A DNA stretch of 64,000 bases from contig OX621171.1 of NCBI GenBank assembly GCA_951640195.1, positions 1,922,001-1,986,000 of the forward strand, given 5' to 3'. Source of the DNA: Porpolomopsis calyptriformis (lineage: Eukaryota; Basidiomycota; Agaricomycetes; Agaricales; Hygrophoraceae). Below the pieces are notes generated by a model. It made no database searches and was not told the origin of the DNA. It saw only the letters and a program-made list of their open reading frames with translations. How positions within the stretch are numbered: the first letter of the stretch is position 1; each line of letters begins with the position of its first letter. The position numbers and the translations under genes are program-made. Shown here piece by piece: positions 3,791 to 39,169 of this stretch.

Positions 3791-3817
3791 TTGCATATAT
3801 CTATCTACAAATGACCC

Positions 3818-9572: not shown

Positions 9573-10220
9573 GCGCGAAACGAGCATACTCGTTTCGCGC
9601 GTGTTATAAATTAATACAATTAATTATTATGCGACAAGTATGCTCCTTTCGGACATGTTATTTTATTATTATTACCATCTGTATTTTGCGCGAAACGAGC
9701 ATGCTTGTTTCGCGCGTGTTATGAATTAATACAATTAATTATGATGCGTGAAACAAGCATGCTTCTTTCGGGCATGTTATTTTATTATTATTACCATCTT
9801 TATTTTGCGCGAAACGAGCATGCTCGTTTCGCGCATGGTATTTTATTATTATTATTCAAGTTATTATTGCTAATATTATTATTGACTAACTTGATCATTA
9901 TTTTTCGCAAAACGAGCATGCTATTACTATTATGTATTATGTTATTGATTATTATTATTATTATTATTACTATTAATTATTATTATGCGCAGAACGAGCA
10001 TACTCGTTTTGCGCATGTTATTTATTATTATTATTACTATTAGTTATTATGTGCGAAACAAGCATGCTCCTTTCGGGCATCTTATTTTACAATTATTATT
10101 ACAATTATGCATCATTATACACAAAACGAGTATACTCGTTTTGCGCATGTTATTTATTTATTATTTATTAGTATTAATTATTATGCACAGAACGAGCATG
10201 CTCCTTTCGCGCATGTTAAT
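9573..10220. repeat. Array of palindromes spaced by TTA-rich DNA, upstream of the ParB-like gene
   Basis: About ten copies of the GCGCGAAACGAG...CTCGTTTCGCGC palindrome lie here, for example 9573-9600, 9688-9715, 9806-9835 and 9986-10015, with decayed copies between. They are separated by (TTA)n/(ATT)n low-complexity DNA. A higher-order unit of ~115-120 bp is visible between 9600 and 9840. Hydrophobic Ile/Leu/Tyr ORFs across it are products of the TTA repeats and are not genes. Confidence 0.85.
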
Positions 10221-10298
10221 TTATTATTAGTATTATTGTTGTTCAAGTTAATATTGTTAGTATTATTTACTAACTTGATCAATTGAGCTTAGTATTAT

Positions 10299-10620
10299 TT
10301 ACACTCTCTCCAACAAATCTGCTATACTTGCGCTACAAATATACACTTCTGGCACACAAGCTATCTTACAAAGCTGGAAATTCACAGCCCTGACCCTAAC
10401 TGATTTGCAAAATATGTCTAACAATGTAGTACTGGTATTTGTAGAAACGTCTTCGGGCATGGCTACTCCTTGATCTCCCTGCGTGAATCTCAAGATAGGG
10501 TTTTGAAACCCCTGCCTATTTTTTCAGCTGCCTTCGGCGGAGACTTCCCTGCGTATGACCTTTTTCTCTGATGACGGCTTGGATGAGTCACCTGACATTG
10601 GCATAGTTTTGCACTTTTGC
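10299..10620 (-). other. Possible short coding remnant, unidentified
   Basis: A minus-strand frame (10493-10299) reads MRFTQGDQGVAMPEDVSTNT and ends with TAG. A shorter upstream frame (10597-10520) starts MPMSGDSSKPSSEKK. They could be two exons of a small gene reading away from the GC-rich arm, but no family is recognised and no splice pair is compelling. Confidence 0.2.
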
Positions 10621-10639
10621 TGATGCCACACCCTGCTTC

Positions 10640-12320
10640 GGCCCCAGTGAGCATCAGACTTGTAGACCTTCAAGGTCTACTCTTTTCGTGCTGTTATTTG
10701 CTGCCAACTGCTAACCACTACCACCCCTTCATCCAGGACCACCACCATCACCGCCGCCACCTCCTCCTCCTTGCCCCCGTCCCCCAACCCCTCGCGAATC
10801 CCGGCCGACACAACAGCGGTGGAGGGAGCACCCCCAGAATGGGCAGACGTGCCCTTTCTGGCGGTGTTCCCTTGGTCCCCCCCCACCATCCCCCCTCGCT
10901 GCTCAACCGCATCCCGACCCCCGGCGATGTCGTCCCCGCCCTAGGCACGACCTAGACGACCCCAGGCGCACGAAACGAACGGGCGGTCATGCCCGTTCGT
11001 CCGTGATGCCTCGTGGTGCCTGACCACCACCACCACCACCACCCCTCGCCGTCCCACCGCGTCCCGACCCCCCACGCCCTCGCCCTCGTCCCACGCATGA
11101 CAGGGACGACCTAGCGAGTCGCCCAGGGCACGAAACGAACGGGCGGAGATGCCCGCTCGTTGGCGGTGAGTCGTGGTGCCCACGACCACCCCTCGCTGTC
11201 CCACCGCGTCCCGACCGCCCTCGCCCTCGCCCCCGTCCCACGCACGACCGGGATGACCTAGCGAGTCGCCCAGCGCACGGAATGAACGGGCGGAGATGCC
11301 CACTCGTTTGCGGTGACTCGTGGTACCTGAGCACCACCACCACCTCTACCACCTCCCCTCGCCCCCCCACCACGTCCCGACCCCCCACAACCCCTTCACC
11401 TCCACACGAGGTGGGGGGGTCTCCTGAGTGTGAGACGGGTGAGCATTACGGCTCACCCGTTTCGCGCGGCTTGTCCCTACACCACCACCACCACCACCAC
11501 CACCACCACCACCATTGTCACCACCACCATCACCACCATCACGCCTCCACCACCATCTCCACCACCACCAATGACCCCCGACCCCCGACCGGCGACCGAG
11601 ATGGGTGGGCGTTAGGGCCTCGCCCTTGATCCCCACCCCCTCGTTGACGAGACGCCGACCACCCACCCACGCTTACGTTGGCGACGCGCCAACCACCCCA
11701 CCCCCCCGCGCTTACGTCGATGGACAACCTCGCGCTTGTTTATCCGTCACAGGGACGATACGATGAGGCTGGGGCCCTCTTCGAGCGGGCGCTTACAACT
11801 CACAAGGACGGTACGACGAGGCTTAGGCCCTCTTCAAGCGGGCGCTGACCACCCATCCACACTTACGTCGACGCACAACCTCGCGGGCGTTTACAACTCA
11901 CAGGGACGACACGACGAGGCTGAGACGCTCTACAAGCAGGCATTAGCTAGCAGAGAGGACCATCTAGGGCCCATTCTTTCGGGGCCTTGCAGCCCCCACC
12001 ACGACCGAGCGCCCATTGGCACTTACATCAGCAAACACCCTCACCACCACCACCACCATCGCCGCCGCCGCCGCCTCCTCCTTGCCCCCGTCCCCCATCC
12101 CCTCGCGAATCCCGGCCGACACAAGAGGGGTGGAGGGAGCACCCCCAGAATGGGCAGACGTGCCCGTTCTTGGGGTGTGCCCTTGCCCTCACCCCACCAC
12201 GACCCCTCTCCGCTCAACCCCGTCCTGACCACCACCTGTCACCACCCACGTCCCCGTCCCCGCCCTCTGAAGGACCGAGACGGCCCTTTGGGTCGTACGG
12301 CCGACAGACCAAATAACGAG
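10640..12320. repeat. GC-rich inner inverted-repeat arm (right copy) with ACC arrays and decayed TPR units
   Basis: This is the inverted counterpart of 3.9-5.8 kb: the same order of hairpins, ACC microsatellites (11480-11560, 12030-12090) and TPR-coding remnants. On the plus strand at 11700-11990 three decayed TPR units read MDNLALVYPSQGRYDEAG, then a broken copy, then HNLAGVYNSQGRHDEAE. The duplicated segment near 12080-12170 repeats 10780-10860 in direct orientation (CCTCGCGAATCCCGGCCGACA), so this arm has a further internal duplication. Confidence 0.75.
11432..11463. repeat. Hairpin, GGTGAGC-core member of the palindrome family
   Basis: GAGACGGGTGAGC and GCTCACCCGTTTC flank ATTACG. It corresponds to the hairpins 4163-4200 and 4709-4744 in the other arm, where the arms are longer (TGCGAAACGGGTGAGC). 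The left arm here carries one mismatch (GAGAC for GAAAC). Confidence 0.85.
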
Positions 12321-12409
12321 CACACGCTTGCGCTCTCGCATCACAATACTCACGCCCCCCGCTTTGCCGACTTTTCGCGTGGTTGGGGGATTGGTGAAGA
12401 GACGTACGA

Positions 12410-13010
12410 GTTTTGGAGCTGGATGGCAAGACAGTTGCGTATCATCCTTTCCTCGTCACTCCTCAAGTTTCAAACAGTATTTTCGATACTCCAGATACCG
12501 TGTCTTTGCCGAATCTCGAGCAGGGCACGCAATCCACACTCACCATCCCATCTCATCTCCCCGCCCCTGTATCCTTATCCTCCACCTCACGCTCTTCCGT
12601 ACCTTTGACCATCCAAGCCAACGCTGGGATAAATGCGAGTCATGCATTGCAACATCCTGGTTACTATTATCACATGGCAGCTCGGTACACAATTGAGAAG
12701 GGAACGTTTTCTGGCCGCTCTGAAGATGGAGGTAAGCATGCAAATATCGGACGATGTCTGGTTGATCTGATTATGGTGCGGGCCCTGCAGACCTCCCCCG
12801 GATTCGTGAACGAGAAGAAGGTGGATCATCTAACGATCATCTTGGAGGTCCGTATCATCCTCTTGGCCAACTCATTGCGCAGCCGGTTCAAAGACAATTG
12901 CCCCTGTTTTTTTCCTCGTTGTCAACTGCAGCTGTACACAAAGTCATACGAGTTATTCAAAAAGTACAGTCCGATAAACGGGCAGAATCAGAGCCAAGGC
13001 CGGCTGTGTT
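12410..13010 (+). pseudogene. TRAPPC11 (foie-gras domain) gene fragment
   Basis: The plus strand encodes part of the foie-gras domain of the TRAPP tethering-complex subunit TRAPPC11, which acts in ER-to-Golgi traffic. Motifs in order are LQHPGYYYHMAAR, PGFVNEKKVDHLTIILE and LYTKSYELFKKYSP. Two introns are retained (GTAAGC at 12732 to CAG at 12789, and 12849-12931), so this is a DNA-level copy, not a retrocopy. Homology starts in mid-domain and stops after SQGRL, where family members continue. There is no start and no rest of the protein. It is the first of the same-strand host-gene fragments running to 29.0 kb. Confidence 0.7.
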
Positions 13011-13311
13011 TGAGTGTCTCGAGTGGGAGGCGGGGTGGGCAACCGCCTGAATGCTCTGAGCAGGCAAAGTAGAGGAAGTAGGTTGTGAAGGGGACGGAGA
13101 GGGTGACGAAAAGGGCGCCCGGAGGACCGAAGAATTCGTAGGATTTTGTGCGTTGATTGAGGAGAGGTTTTGGAATTGGAAGACATGGTGAGAGATAAGA
13201 TGAGGAAACGGTTCTGCACGTGTTGAGCTTATTACCCTCCTCCTCCTCGCTGTCGTTGACGATGACCAACATCGTCGACAATCAATCACCATCCCGTATC
13301 TTGTCGCTCTC

Positions 13312-14775
13312 TTGTCCATCTATGAGCTTGGTCCTTCGGCGGCTCCAATCCCCAGATACGATGGCCCCACAGATAAACAGATGGATATCATCCTCAGGTC
13401 GCTCAGTGCAATGGCGAGACGGATGTACACTGCAGAAGACACGCTTGCTTCCATTAAAGCGTCCGAGAGCTGGCAATTGAACGGACCAGATACAAAAAAG
13501 AGACGAAGTGTGGGTGATATACCCTCCTTCACCAACGAGCTTTCACCGCATTCTATCTATCATCACATCATCGCCAACGGTGAGTCCCATCCAAGCAACA
13601 ATAATGGCACCACCGAACAGGACGTCGAAATGGAACCACGAGATGACGACCATCCATCCACCATCCCCTGTCCACCCCCAAATGGCCGCCCGGAACATTC
13701 CTCCCTCGAAAACCTCACAGGCTTTGCCCCAACCAAGCACACCCGATACCTTTACACCACAACGGCCTCCGCGCCGGCCTTTTCCCATGGACATCACTCC
13801 ACCTGCCCGACCTGCGGGAGGGTCACCACCGACGCCACCACCATGAGACATGTGTACACCGACCCTTCTGTCGGTTTGTCTTCCGTTGCGTTCGAGAGCG
13901 GGATGAGTGCCGTCGAGGAGCTGCGGTTGCTCAATGCACAAGTCCAAGATGTCGCTCGTGTTTGTAACGCCGTCGCTAGGGGTGACTTATCTCAGAAGAT
14001 AACCGTGCCAGTACAGGGCGTTGTCATGGTCCAACTCAAAGACGTTATCAATACTATGGTGCGAATTACTCTATCATAATTCCATTGTACGCTACCGTTA
14101 TATTGTACATAGGTCGATAAATTGGGACAGTTCGCTAAGGAGGTTACTCGAGTCAGTCAATAGGTCGGCACAGAAGGGTAAGTGATCTTTTACCACCCCT
14201 CGTTGGCTGCAACATGCAGAATTACTATTTAGTAAACTCGGCGGACAAGCTCTTGTCCTCGACGTCGAAGGAACCTGGCGAGAACTCACAGGCGTAGTCA
14301 ACAACCTTGCCGCTAATCTCACTAGTCAAGTCCGGTCGATTGCAAAAGTCACCAAGGCAGTCGCACTAGGAGACTTGTCCAAGCAGATCGAAGTGGACGC
14401 GGCGAGATCTTAGATTTGAAGAACACCGTGAACGGTATGGTCGTGCGACTCCGTGCGTTGGCGGCGGAAGTGACGAGGGTGACACTGGAAGTAGGCAGTC
14501 AAGGGAAGCTCGGGGGGCAAGCGCATGTTCCAGACGTGGAAGGTGTTTGGTTCAAGCTTGTCAGGAATGTAAGTGTCTATTTTTGAGTTTTTATGTGGAT
14601 GTACGGTTGCCTTATCTCATTCTTATAAAAGGTCAATCGAATGTGCTCAAGTTTAACCGATCAAGTTCGCTCGATTGCCCATGTCACCACCGCTGTAGCC
14701 AAGGGCGACCTTACACAGAAGATTGAGATACTTGTCGAGGGGGAGATGGCAACGCTCAAAGGAACTGTGGATATT
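13312..14775 (+). pseudogene. Group III hybrid histidine kinase (Nik1/Os-1 type), N-terminal HAMP-repeat fragment
   Basis: The N-terminal region and four HAMP repeats of the osmosensing/fungicide-response kinase are recognisable: [49 protein letters not shown] and [13 protein letters not shown]. Introns are retained at 14059-14112, 14178-14232 and about 14571-14632. Breaks: an in-frame TAG at 14161-14163, where family members have Glu after RVSQ, and a one-base frameshift near 14403 in the [11 protein letters not shown] segment. Homology ends abruptly at KGTV (about 14772). The remaining HAMP repeats, kinase, ATPase and receiver domains are absent, so it cannot signal. The next 1.1 kb is a gene on the other strand. 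Confidence 0.85.
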
Positions 14776-14838
14776 ACCCTGCTTGAGACAAACCTGCAAT
14801 AAAAAATTGGATACAATATTAAGAATATTAAAAAAGTG

Positions 14839-15792
14839 TTACTGACTTTGTTGTTGGAGCAGCCCCTTCAGATATGCCAACTCTTCCTTGTGCTGCTCCT
14901 CGCGTCTTGCTACCGCTTCCTCATGCTGCCGCTCCGCCTCCTCGCGTCTCGCTACCTCTTCCTGGAGCTGCCGCTCACGTCTTGCCAACTCTTCCTGGTG
15001 CTGCTGATCCACCCGTCCCTCTGCCTCGAGGGTCTTCTTACAAAACCTTTCCCACTCCGCGCGGTACTTTTCAAGGACCTCCGTAACATCGGGAGGTGAT
15101 TCTGTGACCTGCACAGACTTGAACCTTCCTGCCTTCACATTATTCCCATCATCAACAACGTAGCCACCAAACTCGATCCGCAACATCTCACAAACTGCCC
15201 CTGCAAACAAATAACACTGGGAGGTGAAGAGAACGTAATGGGGCCAGTGGTCATGCAGGACCATCAGCATAACCATCAGTTGCGCAACCGACATCGCCTT
15301 GGACAGTCGGATGGTCCTGAGTCGTATGTGATCTTTAGCTAGGTAGTCATCGAATGAATATTTATCCCGGGCTTTTGAGCCAGGAAGTAAGAGTGTATCC
15401 TTTGCTTTTATGGTATTTTCGGACAAGGAAGCAAGCGAGGTGGATGAGCTGGAGGGTGAGCAGTTTCCGACTGGGCCGTCTCCTCCTGCTCGTTCAGCGT
15501 GAAAAAAAGTCTTAGCGATGGGTGATCCATCAATGTCGACGATGTCAATGTCGAGGAGGACTGATTCGTGGAAGACAGTAGAAGACTGCTTGAAGTGAGT
15601 CGCCTGGCGGACGAAAGCTGAGTTAGCCAAGTCGAGGTTTTCCTTGCTCTTTACAAATTGGCTGAGCACCGAGACGGGGAGTGACTGATCCTCCCCAGGC
15701 AAGAGCAAGTGGTCGGTGGACATTGGATTGTTCGCTACGAAAAACTTTGAGAATACAGAACGGACAGTGGATAGAAATGATTTGGGAGCCAT
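14839..15792 (-). CDS. Hypothetical protein with C-terminal coiled coil
   Basis: A single-exon minus-strand ORF encodes about 317 residues if started at MAPKSFLSTVRSVFSKFF. An in-frame upstream start at 15816 is less likely. The middle section is globular, with hydrophobic segments MSVAQLMVMLMVLHDHWPHY and LFTSQCYLFAGAVCEMLR. The last ~90 residues form a Glu/Arg/Gln-rich coiled coil with repeated EELARRE/EEVARRE heptads. I recognise the style of an agaricomycete lineage-specific family but no function. It is intact and in opposite orientation to the pseudogenes around it, and it separates the Nik1 fragment from the Fox2 fragment. It may therefore be a later insertion. Confidence 0.6.
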   Translation of the reverse strand: MAPKSFLSTVRSVFSKFFVANNPMSTDHLLLPGEDQSLPVSVLSQFVKSKENLDLANSAFVRQATHFKQSSTVFHESVLLDIDIVDIDGSPIAKTFFHAERAGGDGPVGNCSPSSSSTSLASLSENTIKAKDTLLLPGSKARDKYSFDDYLAKDHIRLRTIRLSKAMSVAQLMVMLMVLHDHWPHYVLFTSQCYLFAGAVCEMLRIEFGGYVVDDGNNVKAGRFKSVQVTESPPDVTEVLEKYRAEWERFCKKTLEAEGRVDQQHQEELARRERQLQEEVARREEAERQHEEAVARREEQHKEELAYLKGLLQQQSQ

Positions 15793-15917
15793 TATAATGG
15801 TGACGAACACGAGCAAAACAGGCAGAGTACGCGAGGCTTTCCTTCAACATGAACCGATCCATATACTGTATAAGTCGTTTTGCCCGCGCACTCACCACCA
15901 CTCACTTCAACCAGTTA

Positions 15918-16816
15918 TTCAGAGCTCTTCGCTTCTCGCGGCGCGAATGTCGTCGTTAGCGACGTCAGTGCTGCCGCTGCCCAGAAAGTTGTTGACGAGG
16001 TCATCAAGTGTTTGTCAATCCATGTCCTGCAATATCCGACAAGTTAATTCCATTCTACAGCCGGCAGCAAGGCGGTCGCAAATACGTCCTCGGTGACAGA
16101 CGGGGGTGCTGTTATACAGTCTGCACTTGATGCGTTCGGCGCGGTGACCATCCTGATCAACAATGCCAGTAGTTTACAAGACAAGGGGTGAGTTTTTCTC
16201 AATGAAACTCGTCTGGGCGTAATTTATTATAACCCCGGTGTTATCGTCATCGTTTTTTGTGACGGACTCACTCGCAAACATTTATGAGGTCTCATCGGAT
16301 TCACCAAAACCGTGGCGCGAGAAGGCGTCAAATACGGAATCAAGAAGATTCGCAACTTGTCAGGGACGCTAAAGGGGTCCACATCGATCCAACTACACCG
16401 AGCGAGATGTAATCCTGTATGACATAGGAATTGGTGCGGCAGCAAAGGAACTCCAATGGACGTATGAGGGACACGATGAATCCAGTGCCCTTCCCACTTT
16501 TGGAGTTATCCCTCAGTTCCTTGCCAGCGCTGGCATCCCGTTGGGCTGGCTCCCCAACTTCAACCCAGTTAGTCAACTGCTAATACCTTGCTTCCGACAC
16601 CGACTCTGCTTCAGGCGAAATTACTCCATGGAGAACAGTACTTGGCTATGAGAGGCAGTATTCCCACCAGCGGCGAGTTGGTGAACGAGGTTCGGTTAGT
16701 CTTGACTCGTGAAGTACGAGACGTGAATGGGCCAGTGTCGGATTAATGGAAGTTCTCGATAAAGGCAAAGCGGCGGCTGTCACGCTCAGTAAAAACGCAA
16801 AGTCGGGTTAGTCGTG
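15918..16816 (+). pseudogene. Fox2-type peroxisomal multifunctional beta-oxidation enzyme, internal fragment
   Basis: Phrases typical of Fox2 occur in order. Short-chain dehydrogenase: FASRGANVVVSDVSAAAAQK, VTDGGAVIQSALDAFGAVT, LINNAS, then GFTKTVAREGVKYGIK. The start of the hydratase part: ILYDIGIGAAAKELQWTYEG, LPTFGVIPQFLASAGIPLGW. Fox2 converts enoyl-CoA to 3-ketoacyl-CoA via the (R)-hydroxy intermediate. Introns are retained (for example 16008-16060 and about 16569-16614). A large part of the dehydrogenase and the Tyr-x-x-x-Lys active site are missing. There are frame changes near 16390, and the hydratase dimer and sterol-carrier regions are absent. The fragment ends about 15 bp before the FAS fragment. 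Confidence 0.75.
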
Positions 16817-16830
16817 CTATATATAGCACG
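16813..16830. repeat. Perfect 18-bp palindrome at the Fox2/FAS fragment junction
   Basis: CGTGCTATATATAGCACG equals its own reverse complement. It lies exactly between the last Fox2-like codons and the first FAS-like codons and belongs to neither gene. It may be a scar of the joining event or a chance TATA-containing palindrome. Confidence 0.6.
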
Positions 16831-16833
16831 TTT

Positions 16834-19800
16834 GTGACCTCTTTCCTTACATCCATGGTCAACGAGGTTCTCCAACCCCTCGCAGTTGCTCGTCAAGATA
16901 CACTCTTCTACCCTCATGGCATGGAGGTCGTCGCTTGGCTCTCTAAAACCATTCCTCGCCCTTCTACCATCTATCTCGCATCTATCCCTATTTCTTCACC
17001 TCTCATTGGCCTCACACAACTTGCCCAGTACCTGGTTGTCTGCCGTGTCTCTGGTCTCACTCCAGGTGAACTCCGTGATCGTATTGCTGGCGCGACTGGT
17101 CATTCGCAACGCCTAGTATCAGCCGTAGCCATCGCCGCATCTAGCTCTTTCGAGTCCTTCATGGACAATGCTCGTAAAGCGATTCGGTGGCTGTTTTTCT
17201 CTGGTTTGCGTGGACAACAAGCATTTCCCGTAACGTCTCTAGAGCCGAGTATTGTCCAGGACACAGTTGAGGGTGGAGAGGGCGTGCCGAGCCCTATGCT
17301 TTCTGTGACTGGCCTCTCGTTAAAGGACTTGGAGCCACACGTGAAGAAGACGAACTCCCACCTCCCCGAAAACGCCAAGTTGACAGTATCTTTGCATAAT
17401 GGGCCACGCGCATTTGTTATCACTGGACCAACGCGCTCGTTGTGTGGACTTGTAACGAATTTGAGGAATGTTCGTGCACCCAACGGGATCGATCAGAGCA
17501 AAACGCCATTTTCACAACGCAAGTCTGTATTTTCCATTCGTTTCTTAGTTGTTGGCGTCCCGTATCACAGCACATATCTTGCCGGCGCGGGAGAAAAGCT
17601 CTGTGTAGAGGATCTCGGGGGAGAGGATCTCTGGAAGCCCGAGGACCTGCAGATACCAGTTTTTCACACCGAGGATGGTGCGTTTTGTCGTCTCTTTCAC
17701 CTTCGACATAATGACGAGCCGGTTGCACAGGTTCAGATTTGCGACTGTTTTCAGGGTCGATCACGCGTTTACTCTGCGATCAAATATTTACGTTACCCAT
17801 TCACTGGTCAGTTGCGACCAACTTCCCGAAGGCAGCGACCCATGCGATTGATTTTGGTCCTGGCGGCTTGAGCGGGATCGGACCTCTCACTGCGCGCAAT
17901 CTAGATGGACGAGGAGTTCGGGTTATTGTTGTTGGGGATAAAGGCAAGGGTGATGTTGAACTCTACGATACGCAATGCGTCAAGTTCGAGGATCGATGGA
18001 GTGAGCAATGGGCGCCGGGCTTGGTGCGGACAAGGTTCGTTTAATGATACCGATATCTTCCGTTATTCTCTAATCCATCAATAGCGATGGTGTGATACAT
18101 CTCGATACCCCGTTTTCTCGTCTCTTGGGCAAACCGCCGATCATGGTTGCCGGTATGACCCCCACCACTGTAAAAGCTGGTTTCGTCAGTGCTGTTCTTG
18201 AGGCTGGATACCATGTTGAACTTGCTGGCGGAGGGCACTACAGCGCTGCTGCATTGCGTGCCAAAGTTTCCGAAATACAGACGAAGATCCCCGCCGGGAT
18301 TGGCATCACACTCAACTCCCTTTACATCAACCCTCGTCAGTTCGGTTTCCAGCTCCCTCTATGGCAACAGTTACGGCAAGAAGGGCTGCCTATAGAAGGG
18401 TTTTGCGTTGCCGCCGGCATTCCGACTACGGAGAAAGCTGCCGAGATTATTGAGGGGCTGAGGAACGCTGGGATTAAGCACGTCGCATTCAAGCCTGGTA
18501 GTACCGATGGCATTCGACAGGTTGTCAACATTGCTGCTTCAAATCCCGACTTCCCCATCATTTTACAATGGACTGGCGGGCGGGCCGATGGGCACCATTC
18601 ATTCGAGGACTTTCATCAACCTATTCTTGCAACGTATCGCTTCATTTGCCAGCAAAAAAATATCTCCCTTGTAGCCGGATCTGGTTTTGGTGCCGCTGAT
18701 GATGTGTGGCCATACCTAACCGGGGACTAGTCTGTCTCGTACGACGTCCAGCCCATGCCCTTCGACGGCTTTCTATTCGCAAGCCGTGTCATGGTTGCGA
18801 AAGAAGCGCACACAAGCTCGTCAGTGAAAGACTTGATCGTTGCGGCCCCTGGTGTGGAGGACAGGGGCTGGGAAGGTACATACGTGAAGCCGACGGGGGG
18901 GATTTCACTGTGCGGTCCGAGCTCGGAGAGCCGATTCATAAGATTGCGACACGGGGCGTCAAGTTGTGGAAAGAGTTCGACGACACCGTATTCAGCCTAC
19001 CAAAGGAAAAACGCATGGCATGGCTAACAGAGCGTAGAGCGGAAGTTATAGAGAAATTAAACAAAGACTTCAGCAAGCCATGGTTTGGATGGAAGAAGGA
19101 CGATAGCGTTGCAACCGATCTTGGTGCTATGACATATGAAGAGGTGGTATTGAGGATGGTGAGACTCATGTTCGTGAAGCACGAGAACCGATGGGTGGAT
19201 ACGTCCTTGAGGAATTTGACGGGTGACTGGTTGAGGAGAGTAGAGGAACGTTTTGCAGGCGTGAATGGCGGTGGCGACAAACCATCACTTTTGCAGAGCT
19301 TTGCAACGCTCGACGACCCCCTACCGTTCGTCGATTTGTTCTTCAGAGCATATCCGTTAGCCAGGGAGCAACCTTTGGCCTCAGAAGATAAGGCATATTT
19401 CTTGGCCATCTCTCAGAGACTTGGACAAAAACCCGTACCCTTCATTCCCGTGCTGGATGCCAATTTCGAAGTATGGTTTAAGAAGGTATGTGACCCAACC
19501 AGAATTATCGACAGATTGTTCTAATTAGGTGTGACCTTCCGACAGGACTCTTTGTGGGCAGCTGAGGATATCGAAGGCGTTTTTGATCAAGACCCTCAAC
19601 GAGTTTGCATCTTGCAAGGACCGGTGGCTGTGAAACATTCTAAAGTCAAGGATCCAGCCATCAAGGATCTACTTGATAGCGTCAATTCATCTCTCATCCA
19701 GAAGCTTGTAGAGCACCGTTATGGCGGCGACGAATCCAAAATCCCCTCTGTCGACTACCTGGCTGTAAAACCCAAGGCTGCTTCTCCGGACTTCCTGGTG

Positions 19801-22800
19801 CCGTTCAACATCCAGCGAGTGGAGACAGAGGCCGAAACTTCCAAGTGATGGGTACTGCGGCACCTGAGCAGTCCCTGTGGTTAGAGACGTTAGCTGGCCC
19901 CCAAATCGGATGGTTGCGGGCTCTTTTCTGCTCACTGACCATTGTGCAAGGTTCATCGTATGTCAGTAACCCCATTCATCGACTCCTTGCTCCTCGTTCT
20001 GGACAAAGAGTTGTCGTTACCTTGTTGGATTCATCCCCTGTTTCTGTCACCGTCTATGGTGCCGCCCGGTCGAATAACGTTCAAACGCCGGCCTTCAAAG
20101 CAGTAGAAATTCAATATGACGCCCAATCAAAGCTGATCAATATTACGGTTTTCGAAGAACGTCAGGGAGTCTCAGTTCCTCTCCACTTACGATTTGTGTA
20201 TAAGCCTTCCATGGGCTCAGTTCCAATTCATGAAATCGCGGAGGGCCGCAACACTCGGATCAAGGAATTTTACTGGAAGCTTTGGTTTGGCGATGAAGCT
20301 GTCCTCCCTAACCTTGACATCCACGATGTATTCGTTGGCCCCGAAGTCACAATTGATGTCACTGACGTAGCAAGATTTTGTGGTGTTGTTGGCAATCAAG
20401 GCGAGGCCTTCAACACCGTTAGGAACACGAAGGTTCAGGCGCCTATGGACTTCGCAATCGTGACTGGATGGCAGGCAAGTCTCATATTCATAAATATTTA
20501 TGGTACTTTGACGGTGGTCCACAGGCAATCATAAAGTCGATATTCCCATTTGCAATTGATGGAGATCTCCTTAAACTTGTCCACCTTTCCAACGGCTTCC
20601 GCATGGTCGATGGTGCGAAACCACTTCAAGTTGGGGATGTCTGCAAGGCGGAAGCTCGAATCGTCTCGGTCACAAATGCGAACGAGGGCAAGATAGTCAA
20701 GGTGAAAGGTTATGTTCGTCGTGGCGACAAACCAGTTATCGAGGTAGTATCGGCATTTCTTTATCGTGGTCGCTTCTCCGACTACCAGAATACATTTGAG
20801 ACAACGGAGGAACCCGACTATCTAGTTGAGCTTGCAAACGACGCTGCCGTTGGGGTGCTGCAGTCGAAGGAATGGTTCAAATGGGATGATGAATCTAGAC
20901 CACTCCTGGCTGGCACATGGCTTATTTTCCGTATCGAGTGGCAAGTTTCATTCAAGGACAAGACCTCATACTGCGATGTCTCGGTCTCTGGCAGCGTCTT
21001 CGTTAGAGACCTTCTGAGACGCTTGGTCAAGGTCGGATCTGTGGACTTCCAACAGGACGATTGTAAAGGTAACCCCGTCCTCGCGTACTTGCAACGTCAC
21101 GGCAGCCCTCAAGGGCTTGCGGTGCCCTTGGCGAACGGCGGTTACTCACTGACCAGCCCCGCCAAAGCCGTATTCAGTGCCCCCCTTACTAACGAACCAT
21201 ACTCTGACGTCTCGGGTGATTTCAACCCCATCCACGTGAACCCGTACTTCTCTGACTATGCGTCTCTCCCCGGCACCATCACACATGGTTTGTGGACTAG
21301 TGCTGCAACACGTTGCCACGTCGAGAATGTTGTTGCGGAAGGTCACTCCGAACGGGTCCTTGCGTGCGTGGTACTTATCACTGAGACGGAATTATTGACG
21401 GATTTTGTTTCTCAAAGCTATAATGTTACGTTTGTGGGGATGGTCCTGCCCGGTGACGAATTGACCGTCAGTATCAAACATGTTGCTATGCGGGATGGTC
21501 ACATCGTCGTCCAAATCGAGACAGGAAATAGTCGTGGCGAGAAGGTTCTTGAAGGCTCAGCGGAGGTTGCACAGCCCACCACCGTCTGTATTCACCGGCC
21601 AAGGATCTCAAGAACCAGGTATGGGTATGGATCTTTACAATAGTTCCCCTGCCGCCCGCGCAGTGTGGGAGAGTGCCGATGCTCATCTCCGCAATGTGTA
21701 TGGATTCTCTATCGTGGAGATAGTCAAAGACAACCCGAAGGAGAAAACTATTCACTTTGGTGGAATCAAAGGTCAAGCCATTCGCCAACGATACATCGAT
21801 ATGACATACGACACAATGGACAAGGACGGTAACGTCAAGACTCTCCCCCTCTTCGCCGATATCGACGTTCGCACTCCCAAATATACATTTAGTCATCCGA
21901 ATGGACTGCTCTTTGCTACCCAATTTGCACAGATCGCTCTCGTCGTTACCGAGAAGGCCGCATTCGAGGACCTTCGGATGAAGGGTCTCGTGCAGAAGGA
22001 CTGTGCTTTTGCCGGACACTCTTTGGGCGAGTATTCCGCACTGGCCTCGATCACAGACGTCCTTCCCATTTTGTCTCTTGTTGACGTTGTCTTCTACCGT
22101 GGAATCACAATGCAGCGTGCTGTGGAGCGAGACTCCGAAAACCGGTCTAATTACGCCATGTGTGCCGTCAACCCGAGTCGAATCTCGAAGACATTCGGCG
22201 ATGCAGCCCTGCGTGAGGTAGTTGACAGCATCACTCTATCAACTAGCTGTCTCCTTGAAATCGTCAATTACAATGTCGAGGTGTGTTGCGTTTGGTGTAC
22301 CTTTAACTGGTGTTGATCTTTCGGTAATCTTGCAGGGTCAACAATACGTTTGTGCTGGGGAGCTCGTGGCACTTGAAACGATGACGAATGTCCTCAATTA
22401 TTTGAAAGTCCAAAAAATTGACATTGCCAAGGTGAAATTAATTCAAGTGTTAAACTAAATGTGGCTAACAAAGTTTATGCAGCTCACTGAAACATACACT
22501 GTTGAGAGGGTCAAAGAGATGCTGGGAGAGATCGTCAAGAGTTGTTTCGAACGAGCTAAAGAACAGCAAAAAGTCGAAGGCCATATAAAGCTCGAACGTG
22601 GTTTTGCAACAATCCCCCTCCCTGGTATTGATGTACCTTTCCATTCCCGCTATCTTTGGGCTGGGGTCATGCCATTCCGAGCTTGTAGGATAACTCAACC
22701 GCTACCTGAATTCTGATAACTAATATCCATATTGCAGATCTTTCAAAAAAGCTCAAGGCCGATCACCTGAATCCCGACGTGCTCGTCGGAAAGTATATCC

Positions 22801-25800
22801 CTAACCTTATCGCTAAGCCATTCGAAGTCTCTCGCGAGTATGCCCAGCTAACCTACGACCAAACATCGTCTCCACGCCTTGACAAAGTTTTGGGGAGGTG
22901 GGACGAGGACGGCTGGGCTGACCCAGCGCAACGTCAAAAGTTGGCGTATATCATTCTTGTGGAACTCCTCGCATACCAATTTGCTTCCCCTGTTCGATGG
23001 ATCGAGACACAGGACCTGTTGTTCGCAGATTTCGCGTTCGAAAGGTTCATCGAGCTTGGCCCTTCTCCAACGTTGACCGGCATGGCTAAACGTACACTCA
23101 AGGCCAAATACGAGGCCCGAGATGATTCCACCGGCCGCTCTCGGTCGATTCTTTGTCATGCACAGAACGGGAAGGAAATATACTACCAATTCGAAGATGA
23201 GCCTGAAGCCGTTGTAGTAGTCGAAGAAGCTCCTCAAACTGCACCCCCGGCTCCCAGTACCGCTCCGGTTACAATTGCGTCGATTTCCGCTCCATCTGCT
23301 TCCGTCACCATGGTGGAGGATGTTCCTCTGAAATCCATTGAGATCTTGACCGTTGTCATTGCCCAAAAGCTCAAAAAAAAAGTAGATGAAGTACCCTTTC
23401 AAAGAGCATCAAAGACCTTGTAGGCGGGAAGTCCACACTACAAAACGAGATACTAGGCGACCTACAGTTGGAATTTGCGTCTGCCCCTGAGAAAGCCGAA
23501 GAAATGCCGCTCGAAGAACTGGCGTCCGCATTGGGGATGGGATTTTCCGGCACCCTTGGAAAACATTCCAACGCGTTGGTCTCTCGTATGATTGGTGGTA
23601 AGATGCCTGGCGGGTTTAATTCTTCTGCCATCAAGTCTTGCCTTGCCAAGAGTTGGGGTCTGGGACCTTCGCGGTCAGACGGCATTTTGTTGCTTGGAAC
23701 CACCCTAGAACCTGCGAAGCGGCTTGGTTCAGAAGCTGAAGCCAAGACCTGGCTGGACGGCATCGTGGCGATATATGCTAAGAGGTCCGGGATTTCTCTG
23801 TCTCCAGGCAGTTCGGGAGGTGGAGCAGCTGGGGCAGCTGGAGGAGCCGTGATAAATAGTGAGGAGTTTTTGAAATTCCAGGCAGAGCAGGAACGGTTTG
23901 CAGCCCAGCACGTCGAACTCTATATGCGCTACCTCAAACGCGACTCACGCTCGGGTGAAATTGCATTTGATAAAGAAAAGGCACATTCGATCGCTCTTCA
24001 AGCCCGGTTAGACAGCATCGCGAAGGAGCACGGCGACACCTATATCGATGGTATCCAGCCAATCTTTGATCCACTCAAGGCACGGCGCTTTGATTCTTCC
24101 TGGAACTGGGCTCGACAAGATGCTCTGCTTATGTATTACAACGTTATTTTCGGACGACTCGCCACCGTAGATCGCGATATTACTGCGCGTGCCATTTCTC
24201 TCCTCAATCGTGCCGATCCGGACTTCCTTGTCTATATGCAATACAACATTGACCAATGTGACGTTACTCGAGGCGAAAACTACAAGTTGGCCAAAGAATT
24301 CGGGCAACAACTCCTCGATAACACTAAAGAGGTCATCGGAAGGCCACCGGTTTACAAGGATGGTTAGTCGCGCTTAGATATTGTCTACTTTTCTCTTCTA
24401 ACTGGTCCCTGAAGTTACCTTTCCCACCGCGCCTCGTACCGAAGTCACGGAAAAGGGCGATATTGTGTACTCGGAAGTCGTTCGCGAGAATGTCCGCAAG
24501 CTTGAAGCGTACGTAGAAGAAATGGCGAGTGGTGACACTGTCTCGGGAGCCGTAAATATCCAAAAGGTTCAGGACGATGTTCTTAAACTCTGGACGGTTG
24601 TAAAATCGCAACCTGGAATTAGCCAAGAGCAGAAGAATCGCATCAAGGCGCTTTATGAAGGGGTGGTTCGTTCTCTACGTAAAGGACCTGATCCTCGTAG
24701 CCGCGTTGGAACCCGAAGCCGGAGATCATCATCTCAATTCCTTCGCCCTCAAATTACAAGCGTTTCATTCGTATCGGCCGACAAGATTCCCTTGTTGCAC
24801 TTGAAACGCAGAGTCGGCACTAATTGGGAATATAGCAGCAACCTGACGAGTGTCTACTTGGATATCCTCCACGAAATTGCTACCTCAGGTACGACATTCA
24901 AGGACAAGAATGCTCTGTTAACTGGCGTCGGCAAGGGTTCTATCGGTGTCGAGATTTTGAAAGGGCTGCTCTCTGGCGGTGCACATGTTGTGGTCACCAC
25001 ATCCCGTTACAGTCGCGCCACTGTCGAGTATTACCAATCGATCTTCCAGAGCTTTGGAAGTCGCGGTTCCGCTTTGATTGTCGTCCCATTCAATCAGGGT
25101 TCTAAGCAAGACGTCGAAGCTCTAGTTGACTACATCTATGCTACGTTAGGGCTCGATCTCGACTATATTCTCCCATTCGCCGCTGTTCCTGAAAATGGAC
25201 GAGAGATTGATGGTGTCGACGACAAGTCTGAACTTGCCCATCGTATCATGTTGGTCAACCTCCTTCGAATTCTCGGCGCTGTCAAAAACAAGAAAGCCAG
25301 TCGAGATTTCGTCACACGGCCTACCCAAGTCATATTACCGCTTTCGCCCAACCATGGTCTTTTTGGGAATGATGGTCTCTACTCCGAGTCAAAAATTTCT
25401 CTCGAGACGCTGTTTAATCGCTGGAGCTCGGAAAGTTGGGGTGAGTACCTCTGCCTGGCGGGTGCTGTCATTGGGTGAGTGAATGTCGACGCTTTTGTCA
25501 TCATCTATCTAAATTTGCTCCCATTAGATGGACCCGTGGTACGGGCTTGATGAGCCCCGCCAATATTGTCGCACATGAGTTGGAAAGTTATGGCGTTCGC
25601 ACCTTCTCGGCGAAAGAAATGGCGTTCAATATTCTGGGTCTTATGCATCCGCTGCTATTCAGCATTACTCAAGTGGAGCCGATTTGGGCAGACCTCAACG
25701 GTGGAATGGCTCGGCTTCCGCACCTTGCAGATATCACAACCCGCATCCGTATCAACCTCAATAAGAAGAGCGAACTTCGCCGTGCTATCGCGAGAGATAG

Positions 25801-28640
25801 TTCCGCCGATTTTCAGGTTGTCAATGGCGTTGAGGCGGAAAGACTTTTGCAGACCGTAAACGTGGTCCCCCTGGCGAATTTCCGATTCGATTTCCCCGCT
25901 TTGGAGTCGGTCGACTCACTGAAAGATGTATCCCAGCTACGGGGTATGATTGATCTGGACAGAGTCATCGTTGTCACGGGCTTCGCTGAAGTCGGTCCTT
26001 GGGGTAGCTCCAGAACACGATGGGAGATGGAAGCAAGAGGTGAATTCACCATCGAAGGGTGTATTGAAATGGCGTGGATGATGGGCTACATAAAACACTT
26101 CGACGGTCGCCTAAAGGATGGGTCTTTGTATGTCGGCTGGGTTGACAGCAAAACCAACGAGCCAGTGGATGATAAGTATGTCAGAGGACGCTACGAAAAA
26201 GAAATCCTAAGTCATGCCGGAGTCCGCCTCATCGGTGAGTAAAGTATGCTGATTCCCCCTTCAAAAGCTTACGCTTGCATCCTAGAACCTGACCTTTTCC
26301 GAGGTTACAACCCCAAAAAGAAAATCTTCAACCAGGAGGTTGAGCTAATCCATGACTTGGAACCCATTGAAGTCGCGGAAGCCGAGGCCGAAAACTTCAA
26401 ATACCAACATGGTGACAAGTGCGATATCTGGGCTGGTGAAAGCGGCCAGTGGTTTGTGAAATTCAAGAAGGGTGCATGCATCTTCGTCCCAAAAGCTTTC
26501 AAGTTCAGCCGTACAGTGGCTGGTCAAGTCCCGACAGGTTGGCACGCTGGTCGATACGGCATTCCTGATGATATCATTGCTCAAACGGATCGAGCTACCC
26601 TGTGGGCTCTTGTCTGCACAGCGGAGGCTCTCAATATGTCCCGCATCACAGACCCATACGAACTATACAAGCACATGCATCCCTCGGAGGTCGGGACTTG
26701 CCTTGGAAGTGGCATGGGTGGAACTGAGAGTCTGGGAAAGATGTTCAAGGATCGCCGAGAAGAGAAGGAAGTGCAGAATGACATCCTTCAAGAGATGTGA
26801 GTCCTTTTTCCAGTACGGTCATCCCATTTCTCAGCGTCCCATTTTAGTTTCATTAATACCACGGCTGGCTGGGTGAACTTGTTATTAATGTCCTCGAGTG
26901 GCCCTGTTAAAGTCCCCGTGGGAGCCTGGTTCGTGTTTCCTCTCCGTGTAATTTCCCGCTGACGTGATCCCTCCCGCAGCGCAACGGCACTACAGCCCCT
27001 TGAGATCGCATGCGATACCCTCCTGTCCGGAAAAGCTAAAGTCATGATCGCTGGTGGCTTTGACGACATTTGCGAAGAGGGCTCTTACGAGTTCGCCAAC
27101 ATGAAGGCGACAAGCAGTGCAGAAACAGAGTTTGCGATGGGTCGGGAGCCTACGGAGATGTCCCGTCCAGCAACAACAACTCGTGCAGGGGTAAGACAAA
27201 TTTGACCATATCTGTTCTTCTGATATTCATGCGTTCAAACCGCTCAGTTCATGGAGGCACAAGGAACTGGGATACACATTGTCATGACTGCCAAAACTGC
27301 CCTGGCACTTGAAGCTCCGATTCGTGGCGTCATTGCATTCACTTCCACCTCGACGTAGGTATAAGCCGATTCGCACTGGTATAGAGACTGACACCACTAT
27401 TCAGTGATAAAGCAGGACGGTCTATTCCAGCCCCTGGTTGTGGGGTACTGACAATTGCTAGGGAGGTAGCATCGAAACACCCCCTACCGCTCCTCGACGT
27501 AGCCTACCGTTCTCGTCAAATCACGTTTAGACGCACTCAAATCTCTCAATGGCTTTCACACGAGCACTCACAACTTCGTGAGGAGCTCGAAGCATGTAAG
27601 AGCCGAGGAGAGCCTGTCGACGACGAATACTTCTCTTCACGGGTGGCCGATATCGAGAAGGAAGCCGACCGCCAAGAGGAAGATGTGTTAGCTATGTACG
27701 GCATGCTTGAAGGATCCGACCCACGAGTAGCACCGCTGCGTCGTGCGCTTGCTGTTTGGGGCTTAACCGCTGATGACATTGTCGTTCTGTCGATCCATGG
27801 AACCAGCACCGGTGCTAATGTGAGTTTATCCTCTTTCCGATGAATCGAGAGACTCACAGAAGCTACAGGAAGAAAACGAGACACACATCTGGAACGATAT
27901 TTTCACCTCCATTACTCGTACCCCTGGTAATGCCATCCCCATCATGGCGCAGAAGAGTTTACTGGGACACTCGAAAGGAGGATCAGCATCATGGCAATTG
28001 ATGGGTCTCTTGCAAACCGTTAGCTCCGGCATTATTCCTGGAAACCGCAATAGCGAGTGAGTAGGATCCGATCATGTACTTAAATACACCTTTCTGACTA
28101 TGCACAGCAACGTCGACGCTCACTTCCAAGCTCATCGCTTCCTAATGTTCCCTTCGAAATCTATTCACACCGACGGTATTCGCGCAGGAGTGATGGTATG
28201 AAACTCTTAGCTTATCCGAAAACCATCTCACCCTCGTGTTCCTAGTCCTCCTTTGGATTTGGTCAAGTTGGCGGCACGGCTTTGGTTGTTCACCCCCGAT
28301 ATTTGTTTGGTGTACTCGAACCTTCCGCATACGAGTCTTACAAAGCTAGAAATCGTATTCGCGCCCTTCAATCGTACCGGGCGATGAGCGAGATGATGAC
28401 TTCAAATTCGCTTGTGAAGATCAAGGAGGTTCCCCCGTACAGCGTTGACTTGGAACGCCGCGTTTTGTTGAACTCCATGGCGAGAGCGACTCTCAACCCG
28501 AAGACCGGTAGCTACGTGTTCCCCGAGAAAATGACGACAACCATAGAGATGGATACCGCCAACACAAAGGCGATCTCGGAAATATCACACGTCCTCACTG
28601 AAACTGGCACAGCAATAGGTGTCGGTACCGACCATGGTGC
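16834..28640 (+). pseudogene. Fused type I fatty acid synthase (beta+alpha), near full-length but broken
   Basis: The basidiomycete one-chain FAS makes C16/C18 acyl-CoA in the cytosol. Domains in order: truncated acetyltransferase (from about 16834), enoyl reductase (18.1-18.9 kb), dehydratase with DFNPIHVNP (about 21.2 kb), malonyl/palmitoyl transferase with GHSLGEYSA (22.02 kb), ACP with GGKSTLQNE (23.43 kb), ketoreductase with TGVGKGSIG and YSESK (24.9, 25.4 kb), and ketosynthase (26.2-28.4 kb). The ketosynthase has its Cys codon split by intron 26928-26979, plus HGTSTGAN and GHSKGG. About 18 introns are retained. Defects: roughly the first 230 residues are missing including the first GxGxG-type motif, and the transferase serine elbow reads GHSQR. 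A Trp-to-TAG stop lies at 18728-18730. Frameshifts occur near 18901 (G7 run), 19845, 21590 and 23395. There is no C-terminal phosphopantetheine transferase: homology ends at GVGTD near 28630. Confidence 0.95.
20475..20524 (+). other. GC-AG intron in the FAS pseudogene
   Basis: Family continuity (VTGWQ then AIIKSIFP) requires removal of 50 bp that begins GCAAGTCTC and ends CCACAG. The donor is GC, not GT. It could be a tolerated natural GC-AG intron or a decayed GT donor; the parental copy would tell. Confidence 0.7.
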
Positions 28641-28776
28641 GCTTTCTATGATGCTCAAGCTTCCGAGACTGACGGCGGACTTGAATAGAGCTGATCTCAT
28701 CACAGCCTTCCTGAAACCTTTTTGGCATTATTGATGTTGTCGGACAGGGTCTTCCCTAGAAAACAAGATACAGCTA

Positions 28777-29041
28777 ACCTCTTTGAGAAGACTTGCAGCC
28801 CATTGGCATATCTATCATGAGTATTGCTCCAAACTTCGTAATACTGCTCCTCCTGCCGTCCCATTCTTGGGTACGTTGCTAGCTCCCTTAACTAATTTCT
28901 TGACTGAGGTTATTGGCGCAAAGGACGTTACCTGACAGATCTCACCTTCTGTCGTGAGGGCAACCCTTCTTATAGAACGTCTCCTACGACTCCCAGCAAA
29001 AAGCTCCTTAACTTCAACAGGTATCATAAGTTGGCTTGAAG
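28777..29041 (+). pseudogene. Cdc25-type RasGEF catalytic-domain fragment
   Basis: The plus strand reads NTAPPAVPFLG, a retained intron (GTACGTTG...GCGCAAAG, about 28869-28920), then RYLTDLTFCREGNPS and KKLLNFNRYHKLA. This is the late part of the CDC25-homology domain, which loads GTP on Ras. Only ~75 residues remain. It begins without the catalytic helical hairpin and stops at TGA just after HKLA, where family members continue. It is the last recognisable host-gene fragment in the series; joining to FAS occurs within 28640-28777. Confidence 0.7.
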
Positions 29042-29552
29042 GTGCGGCACACCAGATACGAAATTTCGATGAGTTGATATTAAATTTTAGTTTCATTCCA
29101 CTGATTTACAGGTTGTTAATGGCGTTGAGGATGTGATACCTTCAATGAGATGATGCCATTGGCACCCTCATGACTTGCATGCTAGGTAAGACTTTGTTTT
29201 ATTGGTTAATTGGCATAGTGGCGGGACTAGCTGGTTTCACCCGTGCGAAGGGGCTCATCAGTGGGCTTAACCGCTTGCCCATACCAGCCCTTATGGCTAT
29301 ACTGTGTACCCAACTTAGATTGCTGAGGGGGAGTCCAGCATCAGGTCATGAATGACCCAACAACCATGAACGGTCCACTCAAACCGACCATGAACGGAAG
29401 GTAGAGGTCTTTGACCCCGAACAGGTGGGTAGTCAAGGGGGGTGCAGACTGAATGGTGAAGTGCGCCCTACTTCCTCTACATTCACATTGGACCATGATG
29501 GCCGACTGCCTGCCTTTCATGAGCGAAAGGACTTGTCCACGATAGCCTTTAG
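29042..29552. other. No gene recognised
   Basis: The stretch contains short frames only and no motif I can place. Near 29345-29400 it has a minor ACCATGAACGG/CCATGAACGGA duplication. It may be more captured or decayed DNA. Confidence 0.5.
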
Positions 29553-29706
29553 TTATCGAACCCACACACTTACTAGCAGTCGGCCGTCTCCGGAGATAAG
29601 GCCGAAAGTAGATAGTGCTATGTCTTGGGTTCGAACCCAAGAGTGAATATTTACATATGAACAGGCTAGTTGTCATTTACATCAATCTCTTCACCACTAC
29701 TGTAAC
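29553..29706. repeat. ~154-bp direct repeat, copy 1 (with tRNA B-box-like core)
   Basis: Starts TTATCGAACCCACACACTTA and ends CACTACTGTAAC; it is identical by eye to 30984-31137. It contains CTTGGGTTCGAACCCAAG, a perfect T-arm-like hairpin with the polymerase III B box GGTTCGAACCC. It could be a short LTR of a TRIM-like or truncated retroelement, or one of two SINE copies. Confidence 0.75.
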
Positions 29707-30983: not shown

Positions 30984-31137
30984 TTATCGAACCCACACAC
31001 TTACTAGCAGTCGGCCGTCTCCGGAGATAAGGCCGAAAGTAGATAGTGCTATGTCTTGGGTTCGAACCCAAGAGTGAATATTTACATATGAACAGGCTAG
31101 TTGTCATTTACATCAATCTCTTCACCACTACTGTAAC
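30984..31137. repeat. ~154-bp direct repeat, copy 2
   Basis: Identical by eye to 29553-29706, same orientation. Flanks differ on both outer sides and no convincing target duplication was found. Confidence 0.75.
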
Positions 31138-31340
31138 AGATATGTTACATACAGCCACCATGCCGTGTTTGTACGTATTTGTACCAGATACCTTAAGTAC
31201 CGGTTATACTTAGGTAAACAATAAGTTTACATCCCACTCCCGCTTATACCAGATTGCCCCAATACATTGGTTCTGTGCATATCCTGGTATTGAGCAAAGT
31301 GTGATAACTTATCCCCAATCCTTACACTTTTTTGCACATC

Positions 31341-32712
31341 AGGGACCCATTATCAACAAAATGACCAAAATGCTGGCACAAAATTAATTCAAAATTCTTT
31401 GGGGGATTATTAGGGCATCCCAATACAATCAGTTTTTAATTTACTAACCCATAAATTAAAAAAATTGGCGGTCCCATTCTTGAGATATATGTAAAATACT
31501 CCATTTATACCATTATGCAGCCCAGCTATTGTATTGCACTCTATAAATCGCAATTTCATATCCATTCGATAGGCACAGTGAACTAATGGTGAGCCCACCA
31601 AAAATTCCGATTTTTAGAGCATTTGGTATGTCGTGGTGGAAGATGGTAAGGTTTTAGGAGGAAGTATAAGTATAAGTAGCTATAGACTGCTCTAAAAATC
31701 AGGGTTTTATATTCAATCGATAGCCCCAGTGTCATAGAGGTAGGGAATACAACAATCCCGATTTATGGACCATTTGGGGTACCGCAATCAGTTATATAAG
31801 GGGTATGGGGGGGATATCTCCAACTTATCACAGAGGTCCTTAAAAATCAGGATTTCATGTTCAATTGATAGCGCTAGTGTCACAGATACTGGGAATACAA
31901 AAATCCTGATTTATAGACCATTTGGGGTACCGCAATAAGCTATATAAGGGGTATGGAGGGGTATATCTCCAACTTATCACAGAGGTCTTTAAAAATCGGG
32001 ATTTCATGTTCAATCGATAGCAGTAGTGTCATAGAGGCTCGGAATAACAAAATCCTGATTTATAGGCAGAATAAGGTACCGCAATAAGCCATATAAGGGG
32101 TATGGGGGGTATATCTCCAACTTATCACAGAGCTCTTTAAAAATCTGGGTTTTATATTCAATCAATAGCCCCAGTGTCATAGAGGTGGGGAATACAAAAT
32201 TCCTGAGTTACGGACTATTTGGGGTACTGCAATCAGTTATATAAGGGGTATGGGAGGGGTATATCTCCAACTTATTACAGACATCTTTAAACATTACAAT
32301 TTCATGTTCAATCAATAGCACCAGTGTCGTAGATGCTTGGAATAACAATATATGGATAGAATAAGGTACTTCAATAAGTTATATAAAGGGTATGAGGGAC
32401 TATATCTCCAACTTATCACAGACCTCTTTAAACATCACAATTTCATGTTCAATCAATAGCACCAGTGTGATAGATGCTTGGAATAACAATATATGGACAG
32501 AATAAGGCACTGCAATAAGCTATATAAGGGGTATGGGGGAGTATATCTCCAACTTATCACAGACCTCTTTAAACATCACAATTTTATGTTCAAACAATAG
32601 CACCAGTGTTATAGATGCTCGGAATGACAATATATGGACAGAATGAGGCACAGCAATAAACTATATAAGGGGTATGGGGGGGTATATCTCTAACTTATCA
32701 CAGAGCTCTTTA
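31341..32712. repeat. Right outer inverted-repeat arm (inverse of 0.9-3.24 kb)
   Basis: It begins TCAGGGACCCATTATCAAC, the complement of the inner end of the left arm at 3238-3220. It runs through the CGGTCCCATT and AATTCAAAATTCTTTGGGGG segments, then about seven inverted tandem units (landmarks near 31712, 31858, 32009, 32157, 32308, 32449 and 32590). It is shorter than the left arm. It is cut at 32711-32712 by the TA target site of a mariner-derived MITE, so its original outer end is not visible. Confidence 0.9.
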
Positions 32713-33330: not shown

Positions 33331-33339
33331 ATTAGAACC

Positions 33340-39141: not shown

Positions 39142-39169
39142 GTTAATTATACCCCGAATGAACTTGGGT

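Follow-up and report, generated by a model that had tools for sequence, protein, structure and literature searches.

We analyzed a 64,000-nt stretch of contig C9 (C9:1922001-1986000; hereafter the window) of the basidiomycete Porpolomopsis calyptriformis, whose genome comprises 33.5 Mb in 17 contigs (given here by C numbers; L numbers denote individual loci). The window carries an array of truncated, intron-bearing fragments of TRAPPC11, ERG24, Nik1, Fox2, fatty acid synthase (FAS) and RasGEF genes. This array is probably a subtelomeric patchwork, generated by serial joining of internal DNA onto broken chromosome ends and then spread between ends. The source loci of the fragments, blunt junctions between them, their recurrence in the genome, mosaic flanks and one truncation capped by telomere repeats were all observed directly.

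The gene-fragment run extends from 12312 to 29083 and reads TRAPPC11, Nik1, Fox2, FAS and RasGEF on the plus strand, with introns present. Alignment to the sources confirmed what an earlier note had proposed from the letters of this DNA, namely five named fragments in this order and on this strand, truncated and with their introns kept; all five are shorter than the source genes and have cut ends. The same note placed everything on one strand and counted five fragments. This did not hold, since the 5′ end of an ERG24 gene, which it missed, and an insert carrying an open reading frame (ORF) both lie on the minus strand. A shared strand would be weak evidence anyway, given so few independent segments.

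The TRAPPC11 fragment (12312-13006, plus strand) is 97.4% identical to its source on C4 at about 838 kb (L030:2922-3620), a gene with a Pfam Foie-gras_1 match over the cut-off and a Gryzun match just under it. As shown by the alignment, the window fragment has two 2-nt deletions relative to this source. At the places affected by these deletions the C4 gene has an open frame, and the idea that it might be a broken copy was therefore rejected. TRAPPC11 is followed by the ERG24 5′ end (13007 to approximately 13186, minus strand; L042:361 onward) and by the 5′ part of a Nik1-type histidine kinase gene (13262-14768, plus strand; source on C12 from 1609.8 kb onward, L042). The assignment of ERG24 to the delta-14 sterol reductase family relies on PF01222 matches on the source (L042:3-581) and on C12:1608094-1609702; the short window piece gave no Pfam match of its own. 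HAMP and HisKA domains were found by Pfam on the Nik1 source gene. At the source, ERG24 and Nik1 are divergent neighbours (C12, 1608-1614 kb), and window positions 13007-14768 correspond to L042:361-2141 at 97.6% identity, as one contiguous source segment. The two entered together, as one divergent gene pair.

Nik1 is separated from Fox2 by the insert (14769-15878, minus strand). Its ORF (14842-15843, 334 aa between stops) gave no Pfam match, no protein homologue and no source locus in the genome; distant relatives are located at C9:1787942 (73%) and C12:649155 (78%). The Fox2 gene, encoding the peroxisomal multifunctional enzyme, is represented by two plus-strand pieces, one at 15879-16245 (source C8:1030105-1030469, 86.8%) and one from the hydratase region at 16343-16783 (source C8:1027121-1027580, 88.9%), with PF22622 (MFE-2 hydratase) in 16373-16648. 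About 2.5 kb of source between these two pieces has no match in the window. The source lies within C8:1027121-1030469 (minus strand) and is 87-89% identical to the window pieces. A diverged or foreign donor is possible, with 11.5 synonymous versus 6.5 non-synonymous changes in 74 codons.

A stretch of about 42 bp matching neither source (16784-16825) leads into the FAS fragment (16826-28701, plus strand; source C8:1402910-1414790), a fused fungal-type FAS with both gene ends missing, which accounts for about 11.9 of the 16.8 kb of the run. The match at 1.40 Mb on C8 is confined to window positions 16825-28701, with 112 substitutions in 11876 aligned bases and five deleted bases at four places. 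A processed retrocopy was excluded by this alignment, which spans 11.9 kb, introns included, with these five deleted bases only. SAT, Fas1 helical, DH region, MaoC, ACP and FAS_I_H domains were found over the Pfam cut-off in window ORFs, KR and KS matches being weak and just below it, and comparison with the PDB gave FAS beta subunits. The open frames of the source (820, 631 and 552 aa) are broken in the window copy. The run ends with the RasGEF fragment (28702-29083, plus strand), 89.0% identical to a source on C10 at 1193.4 kb (L032); the RasGEF domain was found on the source gene.

Source genes are thus present elsewhere in the same genome, on C4 (TRAPPC11), C12 (ERG24/Nik1), C8 (Fox2 and FAS) and C10 (RasGEF), and these sources are mostly internal to their contigs. 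They are spread over four contigs; ERG24 and Nik1 are adjacent, and Fox2 and FAS both lie on C8, separated by about 372 kb and in opposite orientation. Since the sources occupy separate loci, the array is not one decayed segment, and a single decayed segmental duplication was rejected. The checks set out in the earlier note favour this reading too, as source genes exist at other loci and the chimera is found repeatedly. Some sister copies carry two extra pieces left of TRAPPC11, both from C11:983-993 kb; one was labelled 'MFS' by eye without Pfam support, and the other, X, gave no Pfam match either.

Both sources are known and adjoin at four junctions, X/TRAPPC11, TRAPPC11/ERG24 and two forms of FAS/RasGEF. 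All four have zero shared bases and 0-4 unmatched bases between the partners. At the Fox2/FAS junction, 60 bases lie between the exact matches. Truncations of the chimera were also found. At C1R, the TRAPPC11-ERG24/Nik1 chimera is cut within Nik1 and telomere repeats (TTAGG) follow directly, AAACTCGG being joined to TTAGGTTAGG. This is direct evidence of end healing, in one case. Near C10R, the chimera runs further into Nik1 than at C1R before being cut, 9.5 kb short of the contig end, and is followed by TCAGGGACCC, the edge of a subtelomeric repeat block, two of which lie there in tandem. On C3, the cut falls within a TRAPPC11 piece, ahead of the ERG24 junction and 94 kb from the contig end, and the TCAGGGACCC edge again follows. 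Serial double-strand-break repair, one of the mechanisms put forward in the earlier note, fits, and specifically at chromosome ends, as indicated by the telomere-capped Nik1 cut at C1R. A telomere pattern search gave 44 matches at five places (C1R, C12L and one each on C6, C7 and C16). The idea of a genome without telomerase-type telomeres, prompted by zero matches to five TTAGGG repeats, was discarded, as C12L shows mixed TTAGG/TTAGGG repeats.

The same chimera recurs elsewhere. The FAS query gave 14 matches, corresponding to the source, 12 complete copies and one copy at the edge of C7, that is 13 arrays counting the window. For 12 of these arrays the nearest contig end is at most 250 kb away, and for eight at most 100 kb. 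The full RasGEF query is present in 12 of the 13, the C12 array having part of it only. The TRAPPC11/ERG24 junction is more widespread: among the best 40 of 45 candidate matches, it was found in at least 38 places (31 complete, 7 partial), of which 11 are FAS arrays and 27 lack the FAS array, the remaining two matches being the C4 source and a copy on C11. The Nik1 query (best 40 of 46 candidates, source included) and the TRAPPC11/ERG24 query gave identities of 95-100%; with the kinase part of Nik1 as query, 29 of 29 matches were recovered, source included. The C11 copy (C11:1915327-1915933) is located about 5 kb from the contig end and its match ends exactly at the TRAPPC11/ERG24 junction; it could represent a stage preceding the fusion.

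The flanks are mosaic and common to different chromosomes. Besides those of the window, we read them at length in three sister arrays (C9:588k, C15 and C9:87k). Homology to the window ends on the left at 12312 in C9:588k and C15 and at 10424 in C9:87k, and on the right at 30988 in C9:87k and at about 45 kb in C9:588k and C15. The other arrays display several right-flank forms, among the matches listed. The left flank of the window ('type A', 3605-12311) is GC-rich and internally inverted. Its right part, from 10424, adjoins arrays at C9:83k, C1:4025k and, counting only the match at 100%, C4:57k, and near C10R a stretch related to type A is separated from TRAPPC11 by about 0.5 kb. To the right of the array, a direct repeat with two identical 154-bp copies (29553-29706 and 30984-31137) encloses 1.28 kb; a single copy is present in C9:588k and C15.

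The subtelomeric repeat block, made of 149-bp units, is located at 1749-3239 (minus strand), with an inverted copy at 31338-32709 (plus strand) of a kind that also occurs alone near many contig ends. Its TCAGGGACCC edge (minus strand) lies at 3110 and is repeated at 3239 via a 129-bp tandem duplication. In eight distinct contexts, this edge follows A in five and T in three, one of them within a tandem duplication. Among the best 40 of 635 candidate matches, 23 of 25 lone blocks share one orientation with respect to the closest contig end (the lengths of C2, C6, C14 and C16 being inferred), the exceptions being C16:17721 and C15:94979. On C5, the block occurs four times (31847, 61157, 90467 and 119777), each copy exactly 29,310 bases from the next, either as a long-unit tandem array or as an assembly effect.

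In the scenario that we favour, broken or eroded chromosome ends would have been repaired in several steps by joining or copying DNA from elsewhere. The material added would have comprised the MFS-like/X segment, TRAPPC11, the ERG24-Nik1 pair, the insert ORF, Fox2, FAS and RasGEF. New ends would then have received fresh telomere repeats or been fused to a subtelomeric block whose inner edge is fixed, and patched ends would later have been passed on to other ends through recombination between chromosomes or break-induced replication (BIR). We infer that each step began with a break at an end, as well as the pathway of repair and the sequence in which pieces were added.

To place these steps in time, we used synonymous divergence from the source, with exon limits set by hand from the open frames. 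It amounts to 0.017 for Nik1 (420 codons), 0.018 for FAS (2886), 0.035 for X (268), 0.173 for RasGEF (74) and 0.275 for Fox2 (74). For TRAPPC11, it is 0.039 in the window (69 codons) and no synonymous change was seen in the C15 copy (71 codons). Such a wide spread argues against a single founding event. The dN/dS of FAS, 0.32 (P = 3e-6), is below the neutral expectation, in agreement with an intact source lineage and some divergence that preceded decay of the fragment. Other copies bear on the order of the steps. A chimera without the FAS part is present near C10R. At C5:325k, Nik1 is joined to the insert ORF and no Fox2 was found within the next 2 kb; the ORF is itself cut there, at 15579, so that a longer array may have been lost. 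In the C12 sister array, RasGEF extends 205 bp further at its junction with FAS, and the window form therefore most likely results from a later deletion.

Several observations weigh against a patchwork built at chromosome ends. The array at C9:588k sits well inside its contig, the older TRAPPC11-Nik1 family also clusters within C1, C5 and C9, and the Nik1 source itself is about 82 kb from a contig end. Flanks are known at length from only three sister arrays. Telomere repeats were seen at five places only and, of the eight contig ends read, C12L carries them while C10R, C3R, C9L, C9R, C1L, C5L and C11L do not. Most 'ends' are therefore contig ends and not proven telomeres, and this applies to those close to the C10 and C3 truncations. 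The differences between FAS and its source do not look neutral, and part of them therefore arose under constraint. Finally, divergence is unordered along the array, with a young FAS between an old Fox2 and an old RasGEF; either FAS entered between these two pieces or the real gene converted it afterwards. We regard this age order as the weakest point of our account.

Transposon capture, Helitron-like or Pack-type, had been suggested in the earlier note and was not supported: neither kind of end was detected at seven candidate edge pairs, and outer edges differ among copies. A Helitron could have captured the fragments stepwise in transit, the array being its cargo and later copied with the subtelomeres. 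Such elements can carry intron-bearing multi-gene cargo and are present in this genome (35 matches to Helitron_like_N, PF14214), and the subtelomeric block edge starts with TC and mostly follows A, in five of its eight contexts. However, this TC edge is part of a block which also occurs without the array, and a Helitron domain lies within about 20 kb of only one of the 13 arrays (C4:154930). The seven edge pairs showed no exact target duplication and no TC...CTRR ends (hairpins were left unscored), and 20 of 200 shuffles reached the best inverted-repeat score among them, while 92-200 reached those of the other pairs. We therefore regard Helitron capture as unlikely. A Pack-type element, with the inverted repeats at 1749-3110 and 31338-32709 as its ends and the fragments as cargo, could be imagined from the long inverted repeats around the window array, which are up to 96% complementary, from the presence of both arms at C15 and from the remnant of a Plavaka transposase left of the C15 array. 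Yet these arms occur alone near contig ends, mostly oriented alike (23 of 25, among the matches listed), only the right arm was found within the 50 kb read at C9:588k, and two blocks lie in tandem at C10R. Moreover, copies share DNA outside both arms, and no target duplication was found at the array edges tested, which did not include the outer sides of the arms. This makes a Pack-type origin highly improbable.

The diversity of sources, the blunt junctions and the internal deletions might also recall one shattering-and-rejoining event of the chromothripsis type, which would have made the whole array before duplication. This is very unlikely in view of synonymous divergences spanning 0.017 to 0.275 (Fox2 and RasGEF being measured on 74 codons each) and of the 27 places where the TRAPPC11/ERG24 junction exists without the FAS array. 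As for an assembly artefact joining unrelated reads, caution is warranted by the large number of near-identical copies and by the C5 blocks being spaced at exactly 29,310 bp. However, identical junctions are found within different flanks on several contigs, and the fragments differ from their sources by about 1-13%; we consider an artefact highly improbable.

Unexpectedly, the array and its right flank show two mutation regimes. Between the window and the C15 copy, the array (16000-29706) shows 7 transitions and 1 transversion in 13707 bases, whereas the right flank (31340-46000) shows 175 transitions, 126 of them at CpG, and 2 transversions in 14091 bases. The comparison with C9:588k gave the same picture, the 13707 array bases containing 9 transitions and 2 transversions and 13513 bases of flank containing 140 transitions (102 at CpG) and 1 transversion. 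The similar transversion rates suggest that this part of the array and the flank are of the same age; CpG-directed transitions therefore hit the flank and spare this part of the array. The left part of the array (12312-16000) is older and of mixed divergence, with 16 differences from C15 (8 transitions, 8 transversions), 28 from C9:588k (17 transitions, 11 transversions) and only 2 from C9:87k. Relative to its source, FAS has 84 transitions and 28 transversions, of which 18 changes are at CpG, and there has thus been no flank-type CpG excess since capture. Observed/expected CpG ratios are 0.36 in the first 4 kb of the window, 0.86-1.06 at 4001-12000, 0.90-1.01 at 12001-28000 and 0.57-0.66 at 28001-64000.

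This pattern resembles decay of methylated CpG or a process akin to repeat-induced point mutation (RIP). The array may have been spared on account of being built of host genes, or its uniformity could come from gene conversion among copies. One may go further and imagine a camouflaged class of non-transposon repeats: repeats made of host-gene fragments would escape the repeat-directed C-to-T mutation that hits CpG in neighbouring repeats of the same blocks, and would so persist as near-identical, long-lived recombination substrates by which chromosome ends are repaired and equalised. We hold this extension to be rather doubtful. With a CpG-mutated flank next to an array that is largely unmutated, in one duplicated block, the question of which signal marks repeats for silencing in this fungus can be put to the test.

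Human subtelomeres are reportedly patchworks of duplicons, with duplicated blocks common to many chromosome ends in varying arrangements. The present case differs in that it concerns a fungus and that the blocks are made of truncated housekeeping genes. In Magnaporthe oryzae, internal sequences have been described as duplicated at chromosome termini, along with de novo addition of telomeres (PMC7367193). As here, internal DNA is placed onto chromosome ends and new telomeres on truncated sequence, non-homologous end joining (NHEJ) or BIR being proposed there (PMC7367193). The events in that fungus are linked to telomeric MoTeR retrotransposons (PMC7367193), elements for which no search was made here. 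A further difference is that serial multi-gene fusions were amplified here, to 13 and at least 38 places. Gene-carrying Helitrons have been reported in Pleurotus, likewise a case of gene carriage at the DNA level in a basidiomycete (PMC4289320); our array differs in that none of the edges tested showed Helitron ends. No report of such an array was found in the open-licence literature searched. The array offers a readable, partly stepwise record of the uptake of internal genes by chromosome ends of a filamentous fungus, in which one end has its telomere joined immediately to a broken kinase gene. Annotators should also take note, as 13 FAS fragments and more than 30 TRAPPC11 and Nik1 fragments could pass for gene family expansion.

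Other features were noticed in the flanks. A palindromic MITE-like insertion with inverted ends (379-889) is found in neither the C15 nor the C9:87k copy. Short palindromes of the GCGCGAAACGAGCATGCTCGTTTCGCGC type are numerous at 7300-10240, some of them apparently in introns of a minus-strand gene (7325-9438), three ORFs of which gave no Pfam match. Within this region, an ORF at 8590-9168 (minus strand) carries an ASGQHRYAAL motif and looks ParB-like by eye; Pfam gave no support. An ORF at 35788-36507 (plus strand), with DDE_3 and helix-turn-helix matches below the cut-off, is probably a transposase remnant. In the C15 copy (L019:4176-8611, the end of which corresponds to window positions 1 to ~338), two overlapping ORFs of 953 and 535 aa without Pfam match lie beside the subtelomeric block. 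Left of the C15 array, we also observed an ORF of the Sir2 family (L019:532-1368, minus strand) and the Plavaka transposase remnant mentioned above (L020:1022-2167, minus strand).
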